DNA of 64,000 nucleotides from contig NNSG01000012.1 of assembly GCA_002256485.1 (NCBI GenBank), positions 1-64,000 of the forward strand, read 5' to 3'. Position 1 is the stretch's first letter. Every line of letters begins with the position of its first letter. The translations under genes were made by a program, and so were the position numbers. The notes under the pieces are model-generated. The model worked only from the letters and a program-made list of their open reading frames with translations. It made no database searches and was not told where the DNA came from. The stretch is from Fidelibacterota bacterium 408169 (GTDB taxonomy: Bacteria; Fidelibacterota; Marinisomatia; Marinisomatales; TCS55). Shown one piece after another: positions 45,897 through 64,000 of this stretch.

Positions 45897-46613
45897 TTAT
45901 TCTCTACGTGTGGTTTGTCTGGCTCCAAATATTGCCGTTCCTATTCTAACCATTGTGCTGCCTTCTTCAACGCCAATCAAATAATCTCCACTCATTCCCA
46001 TAGATAAAGTGTCCAGTTTTTTATGGTTTGTTGGAAGTTGACTATTAATTTTATCTAATATCTTTTTTAATTCTGAAAAGGCGTCTCTAATTTTTTGTGC
46101 ATTTTTTGTGTGTGGACCAATTGTCATTAATCCTTCTACCTTTAAGTTTTTCTTTTCTAAACAGGCTAAAATATTATCCGTTCCTGTTTTATCAAATCCA
46201 TATTTTTGATTTTCTCCGCTTGTGTTTATTTCAAGTAAAACGGGTATCGTTTTGTTTAATTTCTGTGCGTTTTTACTAATGTTTTCTGCGAGTTTCAAAG
46301 AATCAACAGAATCTATACTATCAAATAATTTGATAGCCTTTTTGACTTTATTCGATTGTAGATGTCCAATCATATGTTTAATAACGTTGTTGGCGTGTTC
46401 AATATTAACAAATTTATTTTCTGCTTCTTGAACCCTGTTTTCACCAATATGTGTCAACCCTGCCTCAATCGCAAGTGAAGCTGTTTCTGGCGGGTGTGTT
46501 TTAGTGACCCCAATAATTGTTACAAGTTGGTTTTTACCTGTTTTTTCTTGGACGTTAAGTATTTTTTCCTGTATTCGTAGAATGTTTTTACGAATAGTAT
46601 TCTCATAGCCCAT
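45897..46613 (-). CDS. YggS-family PLP homeostasis protein
   Basis: 238 residues, the PLP-binding TIM-barrel family with no separate catalytic domain (YggS/PROSC). [13 protein letters not shown] carries the lysine that binds PLP (TKTHP), and [23 protein letters not shown] and [28 protein letters not shown] are hallmark motifs. It keeps PLP and amino-acid pools in balance. Its 5' end overlaps the gyrA stop by 11 bp, so it ends the gyrB-gyrA transcript. Confidence 0.95.
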
Positions 46614-49101
46614 CTTCGAGTGGGGTTTCTCCGGTGGTTTCTACTTTGAGAGATGTTTCTTCTTCTGTTTCGTTGTTTTCGTGAATTACCCGGCTAATGG
46701 ATGAAATTGTTGTACCTTCGTCCAATTTGACCAATTTTACACCTTGTGTTACTCGCCCAATGGTTCGTATTGACGTAACGGGCTGTCGCATTAAAACTCC
46801 TTGATCTGTTATTACAACCAAATCGTCTGTATCTACAACTTCCATGATAGCTTTCATTTTGCCGGTTTTTTCCGTAACGCGCATTGTCATTACACCTTTT
46901 CCTCCGCGCGTTTGTGTTCTGTATTGAATCACATCTGTTCTTTTACCAAGGCCCTTTTCCGTGGCAACCAAGATTGTTCCTTCTCTTTTGACCACCAGCA
47001 TTCCGATAACTTCGTCTGTTTTTGAGCTTAGTGTAATTCCCTTTACGCCCATTGTTTTGCGCCCTGTAGATCTTACGTTTTTTTCTGAAAAACGAATTGA
47101 TTTTCCTTCTTTTGTACCCAAAAGAATATCGTTTTCACCGTCGGTTATTTTTGCTTCTATCAGTCTATCTCCTTCACGAATATCAATTGCGTATATACCG
47201 CCTTTTCTCGGCTTACTGTATGCAGAAAGAGTTGTTTTTTTTATGATTCCTTTTTGTGTAGCCATTGCAATGTGGTGTTGGTCGTCAAATTCTTTTACGC
47301 TCACAAACGCTTCAACTTTTTCTCCCGGCTCACAGCCTATTAAATTAACCACCGCCCGGCCCAATGTAGCCCGGCCTCCTTGTGGTATGTCATAGGCCTT
47401 TAACCAATAACATTTTCCTTTGTCGGTGAAAAACAAAAGATAACTATGAGTGTTTGTTATAAATAAATTTTCTACAAAATCCGTATCTTTAGAAAGGGCA
47501 CCTTTAATTCCTCGGCCACCTCGTCGCTGGCTTTTATATGTGGTTACGGGGGTGCGTTTTATATATCCGCTATGGGTAATGGTTATTACAACATCTTCTT
47601 CAACTATCATATCCTCAAGGGAAACATCTGCTCCAAAAGGCATGATCTCTGTTCTTCTTTCATCGCTAAATCGTTCTCGGACATCTTCTAACTCGTGTTT
47701 TATAATGTCCATTCGTTGAGAGCGGCTTTCCAATATTCCTTTTAATTTTGCTATAGTTTTTATTATTTCTTTATACTGTTCAACTATTTTATCAACTTCG
47801 AGGCCCGTAAGTCTTTGCAATCGCATGTCTAAAATAGCTTGTGCTTGTTTTTCCGAAAGATCAAAAAGGTTCATCAATCCTTCTTTTGCTGATGAAGGGT
47901 CTTTGCTCGATTTTATCAATTCTATAACTTCGTCTATATTGTCTAGTGCTATTTTTAAACCCTCTAATACATGTGCCTTTGCCTCTGCTTCGTCTAGCTC
48001 AAACTGTGTGCGCCTAACAACAATTTCATGTCTAAAGGTAATAAAATGAGTCAACGTTTCTTTTAACGTCAAAAGCTTTGGTACACCATTTACCAACGCA
48101 AGTAAAATAATTCCAAACGTGTCTTGTAGTTGTGTGTATTTATAAAGCTGGTTTAAAATAACTTCGGGAATAGCGTCTTTTTTTGTGTCAATTACAACTC
48201 TAATGCCATCTTTATCTGACTCATCCCTAATGTCTTTTATACCAACAATTTTTTTGTTTCGCACATGGTCTGCAATTTTTTCAATTAGATTTGCCTTGTT
48301 TACCTGGTAAGGAAGTTCGCTTACAACAATGCTTGATCGACCCCTTGTGTCGCTTTCAATTGACGCCCGGGCACGAACAACAACTTTTCCTCTTCCCGTT
48401 TCATATGCGCTTTTAATTCCTTCATATCCCATAATTATTGCACCTGTAGGAAAATCAGGTCCCGTAACAATTTTCAACAGTTCGCTTGTTTCATAATCTG
48501 GGTTTTCAATGAGTGCAATAAGGGCATTAACAATTTCTGTTAGATTGTGTGGGGGAATTTTTGTGGCCATTCCCACAGCTATTCCTTCTGAACCGTTTAC
48601 AAGTAAAGCTGGAAACGTTGTTGGCAGAACTGTGGGTTCTTTCATTGATTCGTCAAAGTTCAGCTGCCAATCAACTGTTTTCTTCTCAATATCAATCATT
48701 GTTTCACTACCAAGCCTTGTCATGCGTGCTTCTGTATATCTCATGGCGGCCGCCCGGTCTCCATCAACAGAACCAAAGTTTCCCTGTCCGTCTACAAGCT
48801 CATACCGCATGGCAAAATCTTGTGCCATTCTTACTAGGGCATCATACACAGAGGAGTCGCCGTGCGGGTGATATTTACCAAGAACATCACCAACAATTCT
48901 GGCTGATTTTTTGTAGGGTCTATTCCACCCAACCCCCAATTCGCTCATTCCAAACAGTATTCTTCTGTGTACCGGTTTTAACCCGTCTCTTACATCGGGC
49001 AGTGCCCGGGACACAATAACAGACATTGAATAATTAAGGTAACTTTCACGCATTTCATCAACGATGTCTAGTTTTACTATATTATCTCTAGATAAATCCA
49101 T
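46603..49101 (-). CDS. gyrA: DNA gyrase subunit A
   Basis: 832 residues, normal length. It cuts and rejoins DNA in the gyrase tetramer. The catalytic tyrosine is Tyr122 in [10 protein letters not shown]. The C-terminal beta-pinwheel carries the gyrase box QRRGGRG (in [13 protein letters not shown]), which marks gyrase rather than topoisomerase IV. A start ATG at 49101 lies 18 bp after gyrB. It is part of the minus-strand dnaN-recF-dciA-gyrB-gyrA block. Confidence 0.98.
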
Positions 49102-49119
49102 TTTTCTCTTTCTGTTTTT

Positions 49120-51361
<2,242 letters not shown>

Positions 51362-51374
<13 letters not shown>

Positions 51375-52456
51375 ATTCTTTCCATGTGTAAAGAAGCGTT
51401 GTTTTCGGACTTTAAATCAATGCCGTGCTTTTCGATATCCACAATATCTGTTGTGGTTATAATTGTTTGATATTCTCCGTTCAATAGCGACAGTACGCTA
51501 TCAGCTCTTTGAAAGTCCAGCTTCGCAAAAAAATCATCAAGCATCAAAATCGGAGTTTTTCCTGTCGCTTTTTTTATTGTGTTTATCTCTGCCATTTTTA
51601 TAAGAACAAGGGCAAGCTTGTGCTCTCCTTGTGATCCAAAATTTCTCAACAACCTTCCGTTAAAAGAAAAACAATATTCGTCTCTGTGTGGGCCTGCAGT
51701 TGTCCGGCCTTTCACAATGTCTGAATTTAATGATCTTTCAAGGCGTTTTTTAAAGGTTTCTGTTTCTCCTTCCGGAAAAAATTCTAAACATAAATCTATA
51801 TCTTCTTTGACGTATTTTTTATTTATTTTTTGCAATTCGTGAACAATTTGGTCAATTATAGCTGTTTTTAGTTTCCACAGTTTTTTCCCCGCAATAACAA
51901 CCGGTTCGTTCCATGCTGTTATCGCCGTGTGGTTTATGTGTCTTTTTCGCGTTTCCCGAAGAGCAAAGTTGCGTTGTTTTATAAGCCTTTGATAGATAAG
52001 CAGCGTTTTTAAATATTCTCTTGAGATGGTTGATAAAATTTTATTGAAATAGTCGCGCCTGTCTCCAGGAGAACCTTTTGTTATAATTTGTTCTTCTGGA
52101 GACAATAAAACAATGGGTGTTTTTCCTATCAAATCCATTGTTTTTTTTATAGCCGTTCCGTTGATAAAAAAACGTCTCTGACCCGTCGACAAATGATTTA
52201 GTTTAATTTCCCTCATGGCGCAGCTTGTATTAAAAACACCTCTTAAGGAAGATTTATTTGAGTTTTCCTTTAGTGTTTCCTTGTGGTTTCGAGTGCGAAA
52301 ACTCCTTCCCATCGAGAGCGTATAAACCGCCTCCAGCGCCGCTGTTTTTCCTGACCCATTTTCACCCCAAATCACATTAATTCCTTTTTTGAAATTAAGC
52401 TGAACGTAGTCGTGGTTTCTGTAGTTTTGTATTTCAACTGTCTCAATGTGTGGCAT
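51362..52456 (-). CDS. recF: DNA repair ATPase RecF
   Basis: 364 residues, normal length. It helps load RecA at gaps. The Walker A motif GENGSGKT lies at 31-38; LLSPEEQIITKGSP, the signature-like SQGEHK stretch and PILMLDDFFAKLD (Walker B and D-loop) complete the ABC-type ATPase. It lies 42 bp downstream of dnaN and overlaps dciA, the usual order in origin regions. Confidence 0.97.
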
Positions 52457-52498: not shown

Positions 52499-53614
52499 TT
52501 AATCATTAAGCCTAATGGGCATCAACAGCATGGTAATTTCGTTGTTGGGTCCTTGGTTTTCTGGAAAAACCAGACATGCGCTTATGGCTGTTTTTAGGTG
52601 AAGAACTATATTTTTTGTTTTCAGGTGCATCAATATGTCTTTCAAATAAGCAGCATTATAACCCACCGTTACATTTTCTCCTATAAGCTTTGAGGGAATT
52701 TCTTCTTTGGCTTTTGATGCTTTTTCCGGGTCTTCAGTTCTTACGGTTATTTTGTCTTCAACAACTTCGAGAGCTATCTGATGAGTAGAGCGATTAGAAA
52801 AAATTGAAACTCTTTTTACCGCGCTTAATAAAGCTTCTCTTTCTACTAAAAGTTCTTTGTCGTTATCGGAGGGTATTACGCTTTCAAAGTCTGGAAACCT
52901 TTCATCTATAATTCGTGTAAAAATAGAATCACCGCCCGTGTTTGCGGTTAAACTGTTGTCACCCATCCAGATTTGAACGTCTGCATTGGACACTAACAAC
53001 GAATTCATAAGGTTTAAAAATTTTCTTGGTATTATTATGTCTCCCGAAAAGTCTTTACCTTCAAAATCTTTTTGTATATAGCGCACAAGTCTGTGACCGT
53101 CTGTTGCTACTGTGGTTAGTTTTTTCTCTTCAAATCGAAAAAGTACGCCTGTTAAAGCTGGTTTCAGCTCGTCTTTGCTGATAGCAAACGTTGTTGTTCT
53201 GATTATTTCTCTGAGCGCGCCTGAATCTATTCCGCTGGCTTTGCGATTATCTACGTCCGGAAGAGCTGGAAACTCCTCAACCGGCTTTCCCATTAGGTCG
53301 TATGTGCCGGTGTTTGTTACTAGTTCAATCTTCTGGTTGTCATCTGCTGACAGCGTAATGCGCGTGTCTTGCATTTCGTTGGTGATGTCCATGAGTGTTT
53401 GGAGTGGAATAGCAGCTGACCCCGGTTGTTCAATGCTTGCGTTGAGCTTGGTGCTTATGGTGATTTCAAGGTCTGTTGTTCGCAAAGAAACCCCGTCTTT
53501 ATCAACCTCAAACAATACGCAGCTTAAAATAGGGAGGGTTGATCTTGCGGGTATTCCCTTAGAAAGCTTTTGAAGTGTTTTTAGAAGTTCTTCAGATGAT
53601 GTTGTAATCCGCAT
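52499..53614 (-). CDS. dnaN: DNA polymerase III sliding clamp (beta)
   Basis: 371 residues, three repeated clamp domains. It forms the ring that holds the replicase. Typical pieces are LPILSCVLFEVDKDGVSLRTT, FEEKKLTTVATDGHRLVR and the C-terminal PGPNNEIT-like stretch ending MLLMPIRLND. It is the first gene after the 371-bp AT-rich gap (53615-53985) with DnaA-box-like sites; dnaA itself is not in the window. Normal order dnaN-recF-dciA-gyrB-gyrA follows. Confidence 0.97.
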   Translation of the reverse strand: MRITTSSEELLKTLQKLSKGIPARSTLPILSCVLFEVDKDGVSLRTTDLEITISTKLNASIEQPGSAAIPLQTLMDITNEMQDTRITLSADDNQKIELVTNTGTYDLMGKPVEEFPALPDVDNRKASGIDSGALREIIRTTTFAISKDELKPALTGVLFRFEEKKLTTVATDGHRLVRYIQKDFEGKDFSGDIIIPRKFLNLMNSLLVSNADVQIWMGDNSLTANTGGDSIFTRIIDERFPDFESVIPSDNDKELLVEREALLSAVKRVSIFSNRSTHQIALEVVEDKITVRTEDPEKASKAKEEIPSKLIGENVTVGYNAAYLKDILMHLKTKNIVLHLKTAISACLVFPENQGPNNEITMLLMPIRLND

Positions 53615-53985
53615 TTAGTCGCCCGTTTAAAATTGTTATAAACTTAAAATTAATTGCTTTAATAAAGCTTGAGATGTTACCGACAAGGGGGTTTTTAGAC
53701 AAGAAATTTTCACCCCACATAACTCTATATATTATATAAGATTAGTTTAATTAATAATTATATTAATTATATACTGTGTGGACAATGTGTATAAGTTTAT
53801 TGATTAAAAAGAATAAAAAGGTTTAATACAAAATTTTAAATGCGTCCGTTAAAGAAAAAGTTGAAGTGGATAAAAGGAGAAAAATTGTGGACAAAGAAAG
53901 AAAAGAAGACAAAAAATATATTTTTTTTAACTTGTGGTTGAAGCTGCAGGCATTGTTAAAAACATGTTAAAAGATTTGTGGAAAT
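53615..53985. other. Candidate replication origin (oriC)
   Basis: This gene-free gap upstream of dnaN has an AT-rich core (53720-53775, almost only A and T). Four DnaA-box-like 9-mers are read from the complement as TTGTCCACA (53777-53785), TTATACACA (53786-53794, directly next to the first), TTATCCACT (53865-53873) and TTGTCCACA (53886-53894). All face the same way. An unwinding region next to boxes is the expected layout. It could instead be only a DnaA-controlled dnaN promoter. Confidence 0.6.
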
Positions 53986-55275
53986 CTACCACGTGTTTAT
54001 TTGAATAAAGAACCTTTCACGAGCTTTTGATATCCAATCTTTATACCACTGGGCACGCTTATGGTTTAATGCCATGTTTTCTATTTCAGGCCAATGTGCG
54101 GTAAGGTTTGGCTCTCCTCCCTCTCTAAAAGAATCTACCCAGAATAAATGATATCCTTGTTCTGTTCTCACAGGAAGACTACATGTCCCTATTTCTAATA
54201 AGCTAAAAACTTGTGAAAGCTCGGGGATGGGCGAGTCGTTTGGATTAATCCAACCTAAATCTCCCCCAAGTTCTTTAGTTTGTGTATCGCCGGAATGGGT
54301 AGACACAAGTCTCTTAAAATCGTTAAGAGAACGAATGGAATCTTTCAAGGTTAACGCAAAGTGGTAAGCTAGAGATTCGTCATCATCGGAAATTTTTGGG
54401 ATAAGCAAAATATGACGAACCTTGATTTTATCTCCACGTTTTTCCTCTGTTTCAATAATGTGATAACCAAATTGCGTTTTAATGATATCGCTAACAACAC
54501 CGACCTCCTGCGAAAAAGCAACAGATTCAAATTCAGGAACTAGCGACCCCCTGCGAACATATCCTAAAGAGCCCCCGTTTTGTCTGCTTCCCGGATCCTC
54601 TGAGTGAAGAAGTGCAAGTTCTTCAAAAGACAAATCTTCTTCTTTAATTTTTTTCTTAATTTCAACAAGTTTCTCGTACGTCGCTTTGCTGCTTTTTTCC
54701 CCAGCAATAACCGGAACCAAAAGATGGCGTATTTTAATTAAAGAAGGAAACAAAGGTAAACTGTCTTTATAAGCAACAAAAAAGCTTTCAACATCCTCAC
54801 GGTTCACGTTTATTTTATTGATCAACGTTTGTTGGTATCTTTCCGTTGTTAATCGATCTCTCATATCAAACCAGAACTCCCGACGAAAAGACTTTAGAGA
54901 CTGCCCAAGCATTTCTTCCGCCCTTTCTTCGTTTCCAGACTGAGTGATAAACATTTCAATTTGTTGATCCAGGGCCCTGTCTACCTCCTTATCTTCCACA
55001 ATGATAGAGTCAACAGAAGCCATTTCCAACATAATTTTTTGATCTATGATTGAACGAACTACGCCTTGTTGAAGGGGCAAGAGTTTTTCCATGTCTGCTG
55101 CCGGGTTCAGCTGTTGTTGTGTTGCTGCGATATTTACAAGTTGAGCAACATCACTTTTCAAGACAAGATGTTCACCAACAATTGCAGCAATGCCATCAAC
55201 AAAAACAGAGTCTTCTTTGTCACCTGAATAAAGACAAGAACAAAGAAGCAGCGCAAGAATATTTATTTTTTTCAT
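53986..55275 (-). CDS. SurA-like periplasmic parvulin, two PPIase domains
   Basis: 429 residues. A short signal sequence (LLLCSCLYSG) may carry a lipid at the cysteine. It is followed by a SurA_N-like helical region (about 25-165), then two parvulin domains (KIRHLLVP...ENGGSLGYV-like GGSLGYVRRGSLVPEF, and KVRHILLIP...LGGDLGWI). Such chaperones fold outer-membrane proteins. It is the last gene before the oriC-like gap and is preceded by a second parvulin-like gene 4 bp away. Confidence 0.88.
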   Translation of the reverse strand: MKKINILALLLCSCLYSGDKEDSVFVDGIAAIVGEHLVLKSDVAQLVNIAATQQQLNPAADMEKLLPLQQGVVRSIIDQKIMLEMASVDSIIVEDKEVDRALDQQIEMFITQSGNEERAEEMLGQSLKSFRREFWFDMRDRLTTERYQQTLINKINVNREDVESFFVAYKDSLPLFPSLIKIRHLLVPVIAGEKSSKATYEKLVEIKKKIKEEDLSFEELALLHSEDPGSRQNGGSLGYVRRGSLVPEFESVAFSQEVGVVSDIIKTQFGYHIIETEEKRGDKIKVRHILLIPKISDDDESLAYHFALTLKDSIRSLNDFKRLVSTHSGDTQTKELGGDLGWINPNDSPIPELSQVFSLLEIGTCSLPVRTEQGYHLFWVDSFREGGEPNLTAHWPEIENMALNHKRAQWYKDWISKARERFFIQINTW

Positions 55276-55279
55276 ATAA

Positions 55280-56056
55280 TTAGTTAATAATATAGGGTGT
55301 ATGGTTACGTAAACTGTCTAGAACATGTAAAGATTTTAAGGCAAATTTTTGTTGAAAAACACGTTGAAAAACCTCATCATAAACTTCTTCTAGTATAAAA
55401 ATAGACCCAGGCATATGTCTTTCTAAAACATATAATATATGATAACCGAAGCTACTTTTAATAGGCCCATAAAGTCTTTTTTTTGATTTCGTTGAAAACA
55501 AGGCTTTTTCCAGCTCTGGAATAAGCGAACCAGTTTCAACAACTACAGGAAGAATGTCGTATTTTACAAAAAGTTCATTTTTTTCCTGTTTTTTACCTTT
55601 GACCCCAAGGACGCGAGCTACCTCAGAAGCCTCTTTTTTGTTGTTGGTAAACACGTGATAAACTTTTACTGCTTTTTGTGTTCTTTTAAAGCTGTCAAGG
55701 TTGTTATTATAATATTCAATAACTTCTGCTCCAGAAACAGAAAGACCTTGACCCACAACGGCTCTCAAATAGTGTTGGCCTGCTAATTTACGAGCGTATT
55801 TATCAACGGAAAAATTCAAGTCGATATTATTGTTGAAACCGGATTTAACAGCATGGTTAAAAAGAATCTCCTCAGACACCCACCGGTTAACCAGTTGATC
55901 AATTTTTGTTTTGTTGTTTGTGGGATGCTCCAAAAGGTCTTTTTCCAACAACTCTATGCTCCCCACTTTTGCAAGAACAGTTAATTTGCTTGAAGGCTTA
56001 TCGCAACCAATAAAAAGAAAAAGTAAAATAAAAAAATATTTTTGTACAGAAAACAC
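55280..56056 (-). CDS. Parvulin-like lipoprotein, partial PPIase domain
   Basis: 258 residues. A lipobox (LFIGCDK) gives a lipoprotein of the outer or inner membrane. The region after residue 20 resembles SurA/PrsA N-terminal helices, and a single degenerate parvulin-like part ends in GPIKSSFGYHILYVLE. The key PPIase residues are not all clear, so it may be a chaperone without isomerase activity. It is coupled with the SurA-like gene by 4 bp and follows mfd by 11 bp. Confidence 0.75.
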   Translation of the reverse strand: MFSVQKYFFILLFLFIGCDKPSSKLTVLAKVGSIELLEKDLLEHPTNNKTKIDQLVNRWVSEEILFNHAVKSGFNNNIDLNFSVDKYARKLAGQHYLRAVVGQGLSVSGAEVIEYYNNNLDSFKRTQKAVKVYHVFTNNKKEASEVARVLGVKGKKQEKNELFVKYDILPVVVETGSLIPELEKALFSTKSKKRLYGPIKSSFGYHILYVLERHMPGSIFILEEVYDEVFQRVFQQKFALKSLHVLDSLRNHTPYIIN

Positions 56057-56067
56057 AATAATAAACT

Positions 56068-59000
56068 TTAGTCTTTGATTCGAATCAGACCGGCAAAGTC
56101 CGTTAAAAAGGAAAAAGCGTCATTAAAAGAAACGGTTTCAACCAAAACAAAAAAACCTTCTTTGTTACCATAGCGAAAAACCCTCCCCATTGAAGAAAGA
56201 TTCTTTTGTAAAGAGTTTAAGTCAAAAACCCCGCCTTGTTGTTGGTTCGAAAAGCAAACTTTAATAGAACTGTTTCGTATGTATATTTTTCTCACGCCAC
56301 ATCCTACAAAAAATTCACGAATTTTTGCAATAGATATAACATTGTTAGAAAAAAGAGGAAGCGCGCCAAAACGATCAAGCAATTCTTTGTTTACGGTTTC
56401 TACTTCACCCACACCACGAGCAACGGATAGACGCTGATAATAGAAAACCCTGTCCTGCGCTAAAGGAATATAATTTTCAGAAAAATATGCAGACCCATCA
56501 AAAACAACGCGAGGAGGCACAGGTGTTTTTTCTTCTGGTCGAAACTTTTCATCAACACACTGTTTAAGAATTTTGCAATACATGTCGTAGCCAATTTGGT
56601 TTACGTGCCCGCTTTGATCATACCCAAACAAACTTCCGGCTCCCCTTATTTCTAAATCCTTAAGAGCAATTTCATAACCAGACCCAAGGGCAGAATAATG
56701 CTCAATAGCCTTAAGTCTTTTTCGTGCATTTTCGTTAAGTTTTTTATTGGGTATTAACAACCAGCAGTATGCCTGTATGTTACCCCGACCAACGCGTCCG
56801 CGAACTTGATAAAGCTGTGCAAGCCCAAAACGGTGAGCATTGTTGATAATAACAGTATTAGCATTCGTTACATCTAATCCAGACTCGATAATCGTTGTAC
56901 AAACAAGAACATCAACGTCGCCATCAAAAAAAGATAAAACAGTCTTTTCTAATTTCTTACTGGGCATAGAACCGTGTGCGCCCACAACAACAAGCTCTGG
57001 AAAGAAATCTTTTATTTTATTAACAACAAAAGGAAGAGATTGAATATTGTTATGTAAAAAATAGACCTGCCCACCGCGACGCACCTCTCTTTTTATTTGT
57101 TGCTTAACAGCTACCCAAGAAAAATATTGCACATTTGTTTTAATAGACAGTCTTTCTCGGGGAGGTGTGTTAATCCGGCTAATATCGCGAACCCCAACAA
57201 GCGATTGTTGTAATGTTCTCGGAATAGGCGTTGCTGTAAGAGTTAAAACGTCCACTTCTTTTTTCAAAACACGAAGCCACTCCTTATGTTTTACACCAAA
57301 ACGGTGCTCTTCATCTATTATGAGCAGCCCGAGATTCTTTGTAACAACATCTTTAGAGAGCAATCGGTGTGTGCCAATCACGAGATCAACCTTTTTATTG
57401 TTAATTTTTTCAAGAACAGATAACTGTTCCTTTTTTGATTGGAAACGAGACAACAATGAAATGTTTACCCCCAACCCCCCAAGCCGCGTTTTAGCTGTAA
57501 TAAAGTGTTGGTCGGCTAATATTGTTGTTGGGGCGAGAAAAAAAACCTGTCTCCCTCCAGCAATAACCTTCATTGCGCCGCGAAGAGCAACCTCTGTTTT
57601 TCCAAACCCAACATCTCCCAAAACAATACGGTCCATTGGGTTTGGTTTGTCCAAATCAACAAGAATCTCATTAATTGTTTTTGTTTGATCCACTGTTTCT
57701 TCAAAAGGAAAAGAATACGCTAAAGAATCTACAAATTCATTATCACGCGTATAACAATACCCCCGAGGTTGTTGACGAGAAGAAAAAACCTTAATTAAAT
57801 CATCAACAACAATATCAACAGATTTTTTTGCTCGGGCGAGCTTGTTTTTCCATGCGCCGGAACCAAGGCGAGACAGCTTTATGATACTCTCTCCCGAAGG
57901 GGTATATTGATGGATTTTATCAAAACAGTCTAATGCAACATTGACAACGCCTCCATCAGCAAATTCGATTGCAACGCTGTCTTGTCGGCTTTCTTTATTA
58001 CCAACAAAAGACAAACCCCTGTATTTACCAACACCATATTCTTCGTGCACAACATAATCTCCCCAACCAACATTTGCCAGACCAAAGTCTACTGAAGCAT
58101 TTGGGTTGTGCATCGCAGGAGAAAGGGGTGGGGGTCGTACCAACATTAGGTCTTCATAACCTAAAACAGCTAAATTTAAATGTTTAGAAACAAATCCGCT
58201 CCGCAACGGCCTTGGCACAAAAGTAAGGTCGCCGAACCGCTCTTTTAATTTTGCTTTTTGATGAGTACTAGAAGCAAAAATATACACATTAAAACTATGG
58301 TCTTTTGATAATGCTTTTATTTTATTCGATACACAATCAACAGACAAACCGCGGCCTATTGAATGAGGATTATTTGTAACAGAGAAAAAACCATCTGTTT
58401 TTTTTATATAGTATTTTTCTTTTATGGAACGAGTAACTAGTTCACAAAATGAAATTTTTTCTTTTGCACTAAAGCCCGAAGGAGCACAAAGAACAAATTC
58501 ATCTAATGATGAGATAGAAAGTTGCGAAACAGGGTTGAATGCGCGTATAGATTCGATTTTATTGCCAAAAAATTCAATGCGAATAGGCATAGAGGCGTAC
58601 AAAGGGAATATATCCAATATACCGCCCCGCACAGAAAAGGACCTTGGTGACGAAGTTGTGTCAACAGGTTCATAACCCCAAAACGATAGTTTTTTTACTA
58701 TTTCATCCATGGAAACAGAGGTTGATGTTTTCAAAACAACCCGATTAATATCTTTGTTTGGATCAAAAACAGGCTGATTAATAGCGCTTTCTGTGGATAT
58801 TATTATGGGGGCGTTGTTTGAAAGAATTGCCGCATAGGCCGATTCAAAACTTTTTTCTTCTTCAGAAACAAAAAAACTTGGCTGGTTTTTCTTTTTTTCA
58901 ATATGGGGAGCAAAAAAAACAGCACCAGGCAAAAGATCATATACGTCCAAATATAGGTTTTCAGCATTTGCGCTTGTATCTACTATTATTAAAAAACCGT

Positions 59001-59169
59001 TTTTATCATGAAGCGCTCTTATAGAAATCAATAACGATAAAAAACCAGAAGCACAGTTTTTTAGATAAGCAGGACCAAAACCACCAAAAAGGTGTTCATA
59101 ATAAACAGATTGTTTGATTTTATTATAAAGAACCTCTGGAAAAGGTTGTGTTTCACGTGAAACCTGCAT
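56068..59169 (-). CDS. mfd: Transcription-repair coupling factor Mfd
   Basis: 1033 residues, somewhat shorter than the 1148 of E. coli. Mfd removes stalled RNA polymerase and recruits UvrA. The N-terminal UvrB-like part, the RNA polymerase interaction domain (VGWGDYVVHEEYGVGKYRGL), the motor (GDVGFGKTEVALRG Walker A, LIIDEEHRFGVKHKE) and the TRG motif region are intact. The first codons (MQVSRETQ) lie over a parS-like 16-mer (59149-59164). It sits in the minus-strand block between mnmG and the parvulins. Confidence 0.95.
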   Translation of the reverse strand: MQVSRETQPFPEVLYNKIKQSVYYEHLFGGFGPAYLKNCASGFLSLLISIRALHDKNGFLIIVDTSANAENLYLDVYDLLPGAVFFAPHIEKKKNQPSFFVSEEEKSFESAYAAILSNNAPIIISTESAINQPVFDPNKDINRVVLKTSTSVSMDEIVKKLSFWGYEPVDTTSSPRSFSVRGGILDIFPLYASMPIRIEFFGNKIESIRAFNPVSQLSISSLDEFVLCAPSGFSAKEKISFCELVTRSIKEKYYIKKTDGFFSVTNNPHSIGRGLSVDCVSNKIKALSKDHSFNVYIFASSTHQKAKLKERFGDLTFVPRPLRSGFVSKHLNLAVLGYEDLMLVRPPPLSPAMHNPNASVDFGLANVGWGDYVVHEEYGVGKYRGLSFVGNKESRQDSVAIEFADGGVVNVALDCFDKIHQYTPSGESIIKLSRLGSGAWKNKLARAKKSVDIVVDDLIKVFSSRQQPRGYCYTRDNEFVDSLAYSFPFEETVDQTKTINEILVDLDKPNPMDRIVLGDVGFGKTEVALRGAMKVIAGGRQVFFLAPTTILADQHFITAKTRLGGLGVNISLLSRFQSKKEQLSVLEKINNKKVDLVIGTHRLLSKDVVTKNLGLLIIDEEHRFGVKHKEWLRVLKKEVDVLTLTATPIPRTLQQSLVGVRDISRINTPPRERLSIKTNVQYFSWVAVKQQIKREVRRGGQVYFLHNNIQSLPFVVNKIKDFFPELVVVGAHGSMPSKKLEKTVLSFFDGDVDVLVCTTIIESGLDVTNANTVIINNAHRFGLAQLYQVRGRVGRGNIQAYCWLLIPNKKLNENARKRLKAIEHYSALGSGYEIALKDLEIRGAGSLFGYDQSGHVNQIGYDMYCKILKQCVDEKFRPEEKTPVPPRVVFDGSAYFSENYIPLAQDRVFYYQRLSVARGVGEVETVNKELLDRFGALPLFSNNVISIAKIREFFVGCGVRKIYIRNSSIKVCFSNQQQGGVFDLNSLQKNLSSMGRVFRYGNKEGFFVLVETVSFNDAFSFLTDFAGLIRIKD
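59149..59164. promoter_or_regulatory. parS-like centromere site at the mfd start
   Basis: TGTTTCACGTGAAACC matches 15 of 16 bases of the ParB consensus TGTTTCACGTGAAACA. The palindromic core TTTCACGTGAAA is perfect. It lies in codons 2-7 of mfd. An identical 16-mer lies 1.9 kb to the right. Confidence 0.85.
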
Positions 59170-59172
59170 TTT

Positions 59173-61050
59173 TTACCTGGATAGATAAACAGATAAAACA
59201 GATACGTCAGCAGGAGTAACACCTGAAACCCGAAAAGCTTGACCAAGAGTTTCCGGACGAACAAAGCTCAGTTTTTCTCTCGACTCCTTAGAAAGGCTGG
59301 AGATTTTTAAATAATCAAAATCTACAGGAATCACTTTGTGCTCGAGTTTTTTTAACTGGTTAATTTGTTTGTGTTGTCGTTTTATGTATCCATCATATTT
59401 TATAATAACTTCAGCCTCCAATAACATTTCGTCAGTAAAAAAAGAAGAAAAGTTGTTAACTGATTTTATGTTTAATAATCTCGAAGGCATATGGTTGATG
59501 TTTACCGCAGGGCGCTTTAAGATGTCTTTCGCGGGGGTATTTTGTAATATAGGCTTCTCTCCTAAACGAAAAAGAGCTGGGTTTATTTCTTCTGGCAACA
59601 GTGTTAATTTTAGATTTTGGACAACAGTTTTTGAAAAATCAAAAAAGTTGCACACCTGTTCAAATTCTTCATTAGTAATTAAACCGTATTCAAGTGCTTT
59701 TTTGGCGAGCCTGTCTCCCGCATTGGAATAACGCATTAAGATTCGGTATTCCGCTCTTGAAGTAAACATTCTATAGGGTTCCAGAGTGTCTTTTGTAACA
59801 AGGTCGTCAATCAATACACCTATGTACGCCTCGTTTCTCCCAAGCAAAAGAGGGTCTTTATTTGATAAAAAATTAACTGAGTTTGCGCCAGCTATCAACC
59901 CCTGGGCGGCTGCCTCTTCATAGCCAGATGTGCCGTTTATTTGTCCAGCAAAAAAAAGGCCTGAAATAAATTTTGATTCAAGCGAAGATTTTAATTGCGC
60001 CGGTGGAAAAAAATCATATTCTATAGCATAACCCGGCCTGAAAAACTCAACTTTTTCTAAACCTTGTAAACTACGCAAAGCTCGCAACTGTGTTTTTTCG
60101 GGAAGACTGGTTGAAAAACCGTTTGTGTAAATTTGGTTTGAATCCGTCCATTCAGGCTCAAGAAAAAGCATGTGGGAGTCTCGACGAGGAAAACGATGAA
60201 TCTTGTCTTCTATAGAGGGACAATAACGGGGGCCAACGCCGGAAACGTCGCCAGAAAACATTGGAGAAAGAGAAAGGTCCTTTTTTATATGATTATGGCA
60301 AGCAGTGTTTGTTTGTGTTGTGTAACATGGAATATTTGGAGGATTAAACTCTCTGGTGCGATAAGAAAAAGGGGTTGGTTTCTTGTCCCCAAGAGCAATG
60401 TTTGTTTTTTTCCAGTTAATAGATTGCGCAACAAGACGAGGGGGGGTGCCGGTTTTTAACCGACCGCTAGAAAAACCCAGCGAAACCAAGAACTCTGTTA
60501 TGCCTTTTGCGCCGCGTTCCCCCATTCGACCAGCAACAATTTTTCTTTCCCCAATATGTACAAGTCCATTTAAAAAAGTTCCACACGTTAAAACAACTGC
60601 ACGTGCAAATATTTTTTCGCCTCCTCTTAACAAAACACCACCAACAGAATTGTTTTTTATTTGAAGAGAAACAGCTTCCCCCACAATAATCTTGATACTA
60701 TTTGAGGAATAAAGATGTGCATTGACATATTGTTCATATGTTCGCTTGTCAACTTGAGCCCGCGGAGACCAGACAGCTTTACCTTTTGTACGGTTTAAAA
60801 TTTTGAACTGTAGGCCAGAGCGATCAGCCGCAAGCCCCATGATGCCCCCTAAAGCGTCAATTTCACGAACCATTTGTCCTTTTGCTATACCGCCAATAGC
60901 CGGATTACAAGACATTCTCCCAACAGCCAATTTATCCAATGTTAAAACGCAACACGTTTTACCCATACGGCTTACAGCAAGAGCTGCTTCAATTCCTGCA
61001 TGGCCGCCCCCCACAACTATAACATCAAAACTATTAGAAGATTGTTTCAC
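59173..61050 (-). CDS. mnmG: tRNA uridine 5-carboxymethylaminomethyl enzyme MnmG
   Basis: 625 residues from GTG 61050, which agrees with the usual length (about 629) and starts MKQSSNSFDVIVVGGGHAG. A 13-residue-longer frame begins upstream but reads into the mnmE stop region. It modifies wobble uridine of certain tRNAs with MnmE and FAD. GGGHAGIEAA (FAD loop), SCNPAIGGIAKG and the C-terminal MnmE-binding helices are intact. The GTG lies in the middle of a parS-like 16-mer. It follows mnmE directly. Confidence 0.95.
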   Translation of the reverse strand: MKQSSNSFDVIVVGGGHAGIEAALAVSRMGKTCCVLTLDKLAVGRMSCNPAIGGIAKGQMVREIDALGGIMGLAADRSGLQFKILNRTKGKAVWSPRAQVDKRTYEQYVNAHLYSSNSIKIIVGEAVSLQIKNNSVGGVLLRGGEKIFARAVVLTCGTFLNGLVHIGERKIVAGRMGERGAKGITEFLVSLGFSSGRLKTGTPPRLVAQSINWKKTNIALGDKKPTPFSYRTREFNPPNIPCYTTQTNTACHNHIKKDLSLSPMFSGDVSGVGPRYCPSIEDKIHRFPRRDSHMLFLEPEWTDSNQIYTNGFSTSLPEKTQLRALRSLQGLEKVEFFRPGYAIEYDFFPPAQLKSSLESKFISGLFFAGQINGTSGYEEAAAQGLIAGANSVNFLSNKDPLLLGRNEAYIGVLIDDLVTKDTLEPYRMFTSRAEYRILMRYSNAGDRLAKKALEYGLITNEEFEQVCNFFDFSKTVVQNLKLTLLPEEINPALFRLGEKPILQNTPAKDILKRPAVNINHMPSRLLNIKSVNNFSSFFTDEMLLEAEVIIKYDGYIKRQHKQINQLKKLEHKVIPVDFDYLKISSLSKESREKLSFVRPETLGQAFRVSGVTPADVSVLSVYLSR

Positions 61051-61058
61051 GTGAAACC
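61043..61058. promoter_or_regulatory. parS-like centromere site at the mnmE-mnmG junction
   Basis: TGTTTCACGTGAAACC, identical to the site at 59149. It starts one base past the mnmE stop on the coding strand and contains the mnmG GTG. Genes for ParA and ParB are not in the window. Confidence 0.85.
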
Positions 61059-62404
61059 TATTTTCCCACACAAAAATGACTAAACACATTGTTTAGTATT
61101 TCTTCGCTAGTTGTTTTGCCTAATATACGATCAATGGCGTCAAGAGAATCGCGGATTTCAATTGACAACAACTCAAAACTAATAGGTCTGTTTTTTATAA
61201 GGGATATGGCCTCATCAAGAGCAAGAAGACATCTTTTTGAAACGTCGTACTGTCTTTGGGTAATTAAAAAAACAGAATCTGATATATTTTCAGAAATGTC
61301 TAATGATTTCAATATCCTGTTTTTTAAATTTTCAATTCCGTCGCCGGTTTTTGCGGAAACAAAGAAACAGCTGTTTATTTTTGATTTGATTTTATATCTT
61401 TGATTCTCATTGTATAAGTCACATTTATTTAAAACAGGAATAACAACAGCGCGGCCTTTGTTTATGTTTTGTGGAGGTTGGGATTCTAAATCAAAAACGC
61501 TTAAGACAATATCTGCTTTGTGGGTTTTTTCTGTGGCGCGCCTTATGCCCTCCATTTCTATTTCTTCTTCACCCTCTCGAATGCCCGCTGTATCAGAAAA
61601 AACAATACTGACACCATTATAAACAACAGAAGCATCGATTAGATCGCGAGTTGTGCCAGGAAAGGAGGTTACGATTGCCTTGTTCTCATTTAGCAGCTTA
61701 TTAAACAAGGTTGATTTTCCCACATTTGGTGGACCGGTTATTACCACAGACGCTCCACGATTCAACAGGCGTCCTTCTTTAAAAGATTTTGTAAGACTTG
61801 AAACTTCATTTTTGGCCAAAGAAAGGCTTTCAAGAATTCGCACGTCAGAAACACTTAATATATCTTCTTCGGAAACATCAAGCTCAAACTCAACGTGGGA
61901 CAACGCATCAACAATAGATTTTCTTATGAGCTCAAGTTTTTTTGTAAGCTCTCCCGATATAATTCGATGATTCAGCCGAGAACATTTTTCACCTAACCCA
62001 TGTATTGTTCCTGCTACAGACTCGGCTTGAACAAGGTCCAGTTTTCCATTAATAAACGCCCGTTGGGTAAACTCGCCCGGATCTGCGGTTCGAGCCCCAA
62101 GGTTTATTGCTTCCTCAATTATTGTTTCAACAATGGTAGGGCTACCATGACATGAAATTTCAAAAACATCTTCACCAGTATACGAGTTTGGGGTTTTAAA
62201 AAAGGTTACAAGAGCACTGTCAAACGGTTTATTGTTAGATTTATAAAGTTGAACCTTTGTTGCTTTACGATTCAAAAAGGAAGAGGGGTGTTGACATATT
62301 TTTTTTACGATTTCGTTTGCTGTTGTGCCGCTTAAACGAACGACCGCTATGCCACTAAACCCATACGGAGTTGCCGCAGCAACTATCGTATCGTTTGGCT
62401 TCAT
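61058..62404 (-). CDS. mnmE: tRNA modification GTPase MnmE
   Basis: 448 residues. The N-terminal formyl-THF-binding fold begins DTIVAAATPYGFSGIAVVRLSG. A helical domain encloses the G domain (GPPNVGKST, DTAGIREGEEEIE, NKCD), and the C-terminus ends in FCVGK, the CxGK motif that is needed for activity. Partner of MnmG. Its stop codon touches the parS site; its ATG overlaps yidC by four bases. Normal length. Confidence 0.97.
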   Translation of the reverse strand: MKPNDTIVAAATPYGFSGIAVVRLSGTTANEIVKKICQHPSSFLNRKATKVQLYKSNNKPFDSALVTFFKTPNSYTGEDVFEISCHGSPTIVETIIEEAINLGARTADPGEFTQRAFINGKLDLVQAESVAGTIHGLGEKCSRLNHRIISGELTKKLELIRKSIVDALSHVEFELDVSEEDILSVSDVRILESLSLAKNEVSSLTKSFKEGRLLNRGASVVITGPPNVGKSTLFNKLLNENKAIVTSFPGTTRDLIDASVVYNGVSIVFSDTAGIREGEEEIEMEGIRRATEKTHKADIVLSVFDLESQPPQNINKGRAVVIPVLNKCDLYNENQRYKIKSKINSCFFVSAKTGDGIENLKNRILKSLDISENISDSVFLITQRQYDVSKRCLLALDEAISLIKNRPISFELLSIEIRDSLDAIDRILGKTTSEEILNNVFSHFCVGK

Positions 62405-64000
62405 TTTCGTTTTAAAGCTGTTTCAGAAATATGAGTCGTAACGGGCGTGAGGTATTTTTGCTGGAGAATAGTTAAAAGATTAAAGAGAGTATAGTATAGG
62501 TTTAGCCCCGAAGGAAAATTGTTGAAAAGCAGTGTAAAAAAGATAGTCATAAAATAAGACATAAATTTTTGTTGGCCAGAAGCTTGAGTCGGCATCATTT
62601 TTTGCTGAAGAAACATAGTTATACCCATTAAAATTGGTAGAACAGCTATATGGCCACCATAAACAGGTATAGTAAAAGGCAGATCTACGATTGCGTCGGG
62701 ACTGGAAAGATCTTTAATCCAGAGTACAAAAGGCGCACCTCTTAATTCGATTGTTGAACGGAAAACTTGAAAAAGTGAGAAAAGAAGGGGCATTTGCAAT
62801 AAAACAGGAAAACAACCACCAAGCGGATTAACGCCGTGTTCTTTGAAAAGCGCCATTTGAGCCTGGCTCATTTTCTGCTGGTCGTTTTTATATTTTTCCT
62901 TAAGGGCATTTAATTGAGGTTGAACGGCTTGCATTTTTTGTGTTGATTCATAGCTCTTTTTGGTGAGAGGGTACACAACAATTTTTACCAAGAGAGAAAA
63001 GATAATTAACACAATACCATAGTTTGGAACAACAGTGTACATTTTTATAAGCAAAAAATGTACACCTTTTGCTATGGGGCGTATTAGAGACCATCCAAAA
63101 TTCATAATAGAGTCTAAACCAACATTCAAAGATTTGATGCGACGATATTCTAAAGGACCAAGATAAAGCAGAGTGTTTTTATGTTGATAAGCCGCAAGTG
63201 AAACGGCAACATTGTATACCTTTTCAAGGTCGCCTCTTTTATATCCTGACGTTTGACCTCCCAAGCCCGGGGTTTCAGGAATTAGGGCGCCAACAAAATA
63301 CTTTGATCTAATTGCAACCCAAGCAGTGCCACCCTTAATATTGTCTTCTTTTGCTGTTTTTTCTTCAGACAGTTTAGGGCTGTGAAGTTCTCCCCCTTGA
63401 TAAATGTATGAATCAAAATAATTGAGATCGTCGCTTACGTTTTTTTCTGTAACAGGTAAACCGCCTGCCCAAGACAAATTGAAAACACCCTGCGATAAAA
63501 ACGATTCAGCCGATGAAAAATCTGTTTTTACATTGATTGTATAATTGTCGTGATAAAAGGTAAGAGTTTTATATACCCAAACACCACCAACTGATTTCTT
63601 AAACTCAAGGGAAAAATCTTTTTCAATGTAGCCGGGTGACACGTTTTTAACTGGTACCCAAGGGCCGGAGAGCTCAACCTTTTCTCCGTCAATGCTGCGG
63701 AAAGATAAAAGCAGATTTTTGCTATTCTCTTCATTAATTAATTGAACAAGGCCATTATCTAAATATAAATAATTATTTAAAGTAAAAGACGTTATAGAAC
63801 CGCCGTTGTTAGAGCTAATGGTTGCAGAGTAAAGGTCTGTATCTACATAATATAACTCTTCCTTCGCTTCTTTCTCTGGAGACGGCAGTTCATCCTTTTT
63901 AATCGTGGCAGTACTAGGAGCTCTTTCTCCTGCCTCCTCACGAGTTTCAACGACGGTCGTGTCTGTATCTACAGGCTCAAGAGGAGGATATAAAAGATTA
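62401..64000 (-). CDS. yidC: Membrane protein insertase YidC (5' end cut by window)
   Basis: The frame is open to the right edge, so the N-terminus, with its first membrane segment, is missing; about 533 codons are present. The periplasmic beta domain (KEELYYVDTDLYSATISSNN through GWS region) and the conserved C-terminal insertase domain (PNYGIVLIIFSLLVKIVVYPLTKKSY, NPLGGCFPVLLQMPLLFSLF, FPSGLNLYYTLFNLLTILQQ) are intact. It inserts proteins in the inner membrane. A start at GTG 63642 is an internal codon. It overlaps mnmE by ATGA. Confidence 0.96.
   Translation of the reverse strand, partial: NLLYPPLEPVDTDTTVVETREEAGERAPSTATIKKDELPSPEKEAKEELYYVDTDLYSATISSNNGGSITSFTLNNYLYLDNGLVQLINEENSKNLLLSFRSIDGEKVELSGPWVPVKNVSPGYIEKDFSLEFKKSVGGVWVYKTLTFYHDNYTINVKTDFSSAESFLSQGVFNLSWAGGLPVTEKNVSDDLNYFDSYIYQGGELHSPKLSEEKTAKEDNIKGGTAWVAIRSKYFVGALIPETPGLGGQTSGYKRGDLEKVYNVAVSLAAYQHKNTLLYLGPLEYRRIKSLNVGLDSIMNFGWSLIRPIAKGVHFLLIKMYTVVPNYGIVLIIFSLLVKIVVYPLTKKSYESTQKMQAVQPQLNALKEKYKNDQQKMSQAQMALFKEHGVNPLGGCFPVLLQMPLLFSLFQVFRSTIELRGAPFVLWIKDLSSPDAIVDLPFTIPVYGGHIAVLPILMGITMFLQQKMMPTQASGQQKFMSYFMTIFFTLLFNNFPSGLNLYYTLFNLLTILQQKYLTPVTTHISETALKRK

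Follow-up and report, generated by a model that had tools for sequence, protein, structure and literature searches.

The window analyzed here is a stretch of 64,000 nucleotides, corresponding to bases 1-64000 of a 68,803-bp contig (G000:C4) in the 2.47-Mb, 48-contig Neomarinimicrobiota draft genome G000 of an uncultured marine bacterium. On the minus strand of this contig lie, in order, gyrA-gyrB-DUF721-recF-dnaN, a 371-bp gap (referred to below as the dnaN gap), and then genes for a SurA-like protein and a PPIase, followed by mfd, mnmG, mnmE, yidC, yidD and rpmH. The genes downstream of dnaN are those that, from their protein sequences, we take to be recF, DUF721-like, gyrB and gyrA, and their order among relatives was obtained by tblastn. 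As stated in the original prediction, dnaA is not adjacent: it lies on the plus strand, starting at contig position 64640, which is 640 bp beyond the end of the window and approximately 11 kb from the dnaN gap. It is divergent from rpmH, with a gap between them at contig 64471-64639. The dnaA product contains PF00308, PF08299 and PF11638, and the box-binding domain IV is encoded by the host.

The dnaN gap contains a cluster of predicted DnaA boxes (Table 1), a box being defined as a site with at most one mismatch to TTATCCACA and a weak box as a site with two mismatches. The earlier description of four same-orientation DnaA-box-like sites, two of them end to end, beside a core of almost pure AT holds in full: all four boxes are on the minus strand, two of them abut each other, and the AT core is real, with no 60-bp duplex elsewhere on the contig as weak (-54.7 vs -59.3 for the runner-up); it ends 1 bp before the first box. 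The gap is also the densest box cluster of the contig, with 4 of the 25 sites found in 68,803 bp. At the rate observed in the rest of the contig, 0.11 boxes would be expected per 371 bp (Poisson P ~6e-6), and none of 2000 dinucleotide shuffles of the gap reached four boxes. DnaA-trio runs on the proper strand numbered 58, compared to a shuffle mean of 48.7 (sd 3.1), with 66 on the opposite strand, so this signal is not strand-specific. An Rfam search of the window returned no RNA element at the gathering threshold.

Table 1. Features of the dnaN gap and its neighboring genes (window coordinates)
Feature	Position	Strand	Remarks
Candidate oriC, non-coding dnaN / surA-like gap	53615-53985		Contains the box cluster and the weakest duplex; strand composition switches here; conserved among 37 stretches
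Predicted DNA unwinding element (AT core)	53716-53775		Least stable 60-bp duplex of the 68.8-kb contig
Predicted DnaA box TTGTCCACA	53777-53785	-	At most 1 mismatch to TTATCCACA; adjoins the AT core
Predicted DnaA box TTATACACA	53786-53794	-	At most 1 mismatch; abuts the box at 53777-53785 end to end
Predicted DnaA box TTATCCACT	53865-53873	-	At most 1 mismatch; 21 bp start-to-start to the box at 53886
Predicted DnaA box TTGTCCACA	53886-53894	-	At most 1 mismatch to TTATCCACA
Weak DnaA-box-like site	53933-53941	-	2 mismatches
Weak DnaA-box-like site	53977-53985	-	2 mismatches; a good box is often at this place in relatives
Promoter-like block read towards dnaN	53674-53702	-	TTGTCT, 17 nt, TAACAT; conserved; between the AT core and dnaN
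dnaN (beta clamp)	52499-53614	-	Pfam PF00712, PF02767, PF02768
recF, DUF721-like gene, gyrB, gyrA (presumed)	46603-52456	-	Downstream of dnaN; leading-strand composition
surA-like, PPIase, mfd, mnmG, mnmE, yidC	53986-64000	-	Lagging-strand composition; block runs past the window to yidD and rpmH (contig 64470)

The promoter-like block is likely to be the dnaN promoter; a block of the type TTA[CG][CT]..ACAAG recurs at a fixed 22-nt spacing in relatives, with 20 such spacings over 37 stretches as well as in the alignment. A promoter scan made no call at 53674-53702; the promoter-like sites that it did call fell within the boxes and the AT core, and thus DnaA may also regulate dnaN. On the plus strand, a terminator-like stem-loop (window 53977-54003) is located at the 3' end of the surA-like gene, where it overlaps with the last of the weak boxes.

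For comparison, 41 stretches were used (40 relatives and the window contig), of which 37 contain dnaN, representing 13 families of the order. Shorter loci of the same genomes were not counted besides their longer stretches, and the alignment of the dnaN gap comprised 36 of the 37 stretches, L086 being omitted on account of its long gap. Stretches that include both ends retain the gene order fully or nearly so, with mfd absent from the cluster in L100-L102 and with patchy detection of recF, ppi2 or yidD among stretches whose order is otherwise kept. Counting the window contig, the dnaN gaps of the 37 stretches contain 115 boxes, of which 110 share the orientation seen in the window, versus 5.6 in shuffled gaps (sd 2.3, maximum 11 in 100); the remainder of the same stretches has 0.20 boxes per 371 bp, with no bias in orientation. 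The gap holds at least two boxes in 32 stretches and at least three in 22. Box positions cluster approximately 160-180, 240-280 and 340-380 bp from dnaN, and the commonest spacing in relatives is 21 bp start-to-start. The end-to-end pair is not the rule, both sites being within two mismatches in 8/37 stretches. The weakest 60-bp duplex of the whole stretch falls in the dnaN gap in 33/37. All 13 families thus show conservation of the boxes, the weak duplex and the gene order, and the arrangement, with the candidate origin next to dnaN and dnaA apart from it, is common to the order.

According to the original prediction, a skew switch at rpmH-dnaA would speak against an origin at dnaN. Because the genes from gyrA to rpmH all share a single strand, raw GC skew is a confounded measure; in the window it is dominated by gene direction, shows no clean minimum at the dnaN gap, and was rejected as a test. 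The switch was therefore assessed from the local T-A skew at fourfold-degenerate codon sites on the window contig and its relatives, using 31 of the 37 dnaN stretches (the middle block is incomplete in L104, L106, L108, L110, L112 and L113, which were left out). The plus-strand fourfold T-A skew is higher to the left of the gap than in the surA-yidC block in 28 of these 31 stretches, the difference expected from an origin at this gap. In 20 stretches its change point is at most 1.4 kb from the dnaN start; it is near dnaA in two (G058 and G008) and elsewhere in nine, which places the switch at the dnaN/surA gap and not at rpmH-dnaA. Fourfold G-C skew fails to separate the two sides of the gap (17/31). 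An artefact of amino-acid composition behind the T-A switch was rejected, because the shift has the same sign in each of the eight fourfold codon families.

Among genes outside the disputed block, T-A skew distinguishes leading from lagging ones in all of the seven genomes except G008. When random sets of leading genes were drawn 20,000 times per genome, none reached the T-A skew of the surA-yidC block in five of the seven genomes, including G000, where only 9 leading genes were available for drawing; the proportion was 0.4% in G060 and 71% in G008. The block from surA to yidC looks lagging-like in composition, not leading-like.

An origin-position scan covering all gene boundaries, in which genes were compared only by their leading or lagging status, was applied to the same number of genomes. 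It peaks in the dnaN gap in four of the seven, among 42 to 181 genes scanned, with a log-likelihood gain of 75.1 vs 63.0 at dnaA in the window genome, 98.8 vs 50.8 in G049, 53.8 vs 26.0 in G007, and 113.3 vs 12.1 in G043. The peak lies 1.5 kb away in G060 (gap 71.2, dnaA 63.0), and G048 has a flat, broad top with its optimum at about -7 kb (gap 28.6, dnaA 17.5). The gap is thus preferred to dnaA in six of the seven genomes, the seventh (G008) being uninformative (best 8.9, gap 7.7, dnaA 8.7).

Two single-contig genomes of the phylum extend this comparison. In G074, which belongs to another class and measures 2.79 Mb, 13 kb separate dnaN from dnaA. The scan optimum falls 2.3 kb to the left of the dnaN start (33.8; gap 33.0; dnaA 24.3), the cumulative G-C minimum of a 198-kb stretch lies 1.9 kb left of the same start, and raw skew, as sampled, is positive up to 1.2 Mb, with negative or near-zero values between 1.4 and 2.77 Mb. 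In G108, which belongs to the same class but another order and measures 3.40 Mb, dnaA is 92 kb from dnaN (G108:C1; loci L155, L161-L175), yet the least stable duplex of 300 kb lies 141 bp from dnaN, with adjoining box-like sites visible by eye beside it, upstream of the gene. The scan rejects dnaA (43.9 vs 82.3 at the dnaN gap), with a broad optimum 15 kb to the right of dnaN (104.5) that stands 22 log units above the gap and counts against exact placement at dnaN in this lineage. The dnaN gap is preferred to dnaA in both single-contig genomes. Together with the scan in six of seven genomes and the conservation of the element across the order, these results support the earlier proposal of an origin on the dnaN side.

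We consider it highly probable that the chromosomal origin of replication corresponds to the 371-bp gap upstream of dnaN, and that it operates by box loading, melting and fork departure as outlined below. The assignment of oriC to this gap is a prediction that is very probably correct, being well supported by the boxes, the weak duplex, the conservation and the composition switch. In the proposed model, DnaA, encoded 11 kb away, would bind the co-oriented boxes at 53777-53894, and, on the pattern of the basal unwinding system described below, those at 53777-53794, next to the AT core, would load it onto a single strand of 53716-53775. This segment would then melt, with a presumed polarity, and take the helicases. 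A left fork starting here would be co-directional with dnaN-recF-gyrB-gyrA, while the right fork would run into the surA-mfd-mnmG-mnmE-yidC-rpmH operon, which apparently faces it head-on, before reaching dnaA.

The rpmH-dnaA region is the origin region of many bacteria, and the arrangement in this genome is similar in that rpmH and dnaA are divergent and two boxes are located at the dnaA start. These boxes lie 11 bp apart at contig 64628 and 64639, and the latter shares sequence with the dnaA start codon; the pair is kept at this spacing in 28/33 stretches, and a promoter-like site, TTGTCC/TATAAT, detected by the promoter scan overlaps the proximal box. If the origin were in this classical place, every gene from gyrA through to rpmH would be transcribed in the direction of its fork, and the dnaN gap would represent only a DnaA-controlled promoter of dnaN-recF-gyrB-gyrA. 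This explanation is unlikely. Unlike at rpmH-dnaA origins, the duplex here is the less unstable one, that of the dnaN gap being weaker in 29/30 stretches, and neither the strand switch nor the unwinding element is found at rpmH-dnaA in most genomes, the exceptions being the change points of G058 and G008; moreover, the surA-yidC block has the lagging-like composition that random leading sets failed to reach in five of seven genomes. In G108, the distant dnaA is closely preceded by two TTATCCACA boxes that are 11 bp apart, whereas the weak duplex is at dnaN, a pattern that fits autoregulation. Since this pair stays with dnaA 92 kb from dnaN, it is suggested to belong to dnaA control, and the box pair at the dnaA start is most likely autoregulatory.

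Just beyond the window end, a Y1 transposase gene (PF01797; L009:2958-4344, contig 65957-67343) separates dnaA from a lexA-like gene (PF01726). It is flanked by 73-nt repeats that are 97% alike, with a 51-nt stretch containing the palindrome GTACAATGTTTGTAC on both of its sides. This locus resembles the insertion of a REP-associated transposase at what may be an SOS operator.

A split origin, in which melting takes place at the dnaN gap and the dnaA box pair cooperates with it across 11 kb, is very unlikely. Known bipartite origins span about one gene, and the two box groups are 92 kb apart in G108, so that no fixed distance would be needed between them. Its attraction is that both groups are conserved in the order and that bipartite origins do exist, such as the oriC of H. 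pylori, which is described as consisting of two parts (PMC8235120). The suggestion that the dnaN gap is a DnaA-titration or regulatory site near an origin elsewhere within some 10-20 kb, which could draw on the broad optima at +15 kb in G108 and -7 kb in G048 and on the overlap of boxes with promoter-like sites, is extremely unlikely given the scan optimum in the gap itself in four genomes, among 42 to 181 genes, and the location of the weakest duplex there in 33/37 stretches.

The identification of the dnaN gap as oriC can be compared with known systems. An oriC beside dnaN with dnaA elsewhere is already established in cyanobacteria: in Synechococcus elongatus and Cyanothece ATCC 51142, oriC is described as adjoining dnaN, with dnaA encoded apart (PMC7198777, PMC4674748), and the DoriC description likewise covers a dnaN-side oriC of cyanobacteria (PMC6323995). 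As in the window, the cyanobacterial origin adjoins dnaN apart from dnaA and combines several boxes with an AT stretch. However, its boxes are mostly TTTTCCACA, which is none of the window's four but is present in several relatives, which mix both types; in addition, unlike in cyanobacteria, dnaN in the window heads recF-gyrB-gyrA, and dnaA is approximately 11 kb off across one conserved operon. A second parallel is the basal unwinding system (BUS) of B. subtilis, described as two co-oriented, adjoining DnaA boxes by an AT element with further boxes beyond (PMC6669920, PMC10721633). The window has a similar co-oriented, adjoining pair next to its AT core, although only the 8/37 stretches mentioned above keep both sites. 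The DnaA-trio repeats of the BUS, sought on the proper strand, gave the counts reported above, higher than in shuffles but lower than on the opposite strand. The incC region of B. subtilis is near dnaA, whereas the candidate oriC of the window is 11 kb from it.

With regard to the draft genomes, 21 of 61 had neither a dnaN nor a dnaA match; the same 21 (21/21) had no mnmG match and 18 of them no gyrA match, although the rpoB domain PF00562 is present in 18/21. It seems that the block near the origin is lost from these drafts as a unit, perhaps due to higher coverage near the origin. G057 (L111, L112), with two dnaN and two dnaA matches on different contigs that are 58-64% identical to those of the window, is probably a mixed bin.

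No origin was found described for this phylum in the open-access papers searched (Marinimicrobia, Neomarinimicrobiota, SAR406). With the dnaN gap, the dnaN-side arrangement extends to a second phylum, and an uncultured marine lineage gains a concrete, testable oriC. It can also be used in coverage-based estimates of growth rate, in which the peak is expected at dnaN rather than at dnaA. The conserved essential-gene operon that apparently faces the fork head-on right at the origin is an unusual neighbor. In a broader interpretation, for and against which we see the balance as even, the origin would be fixed at dnaN, apart from dnaA, across the order examined and visibly in other orders, and an operon of essential genes (mfd, mnmG, mnmE, yidC, rpmH), situated between oriC and dnaA, would be maintained in head-on orientation to the first fork. 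As oriC would stay at dnaN even where dnaA is 92 kb away, its position in these bacteria would follow the clamp gene and not the initiator gene.
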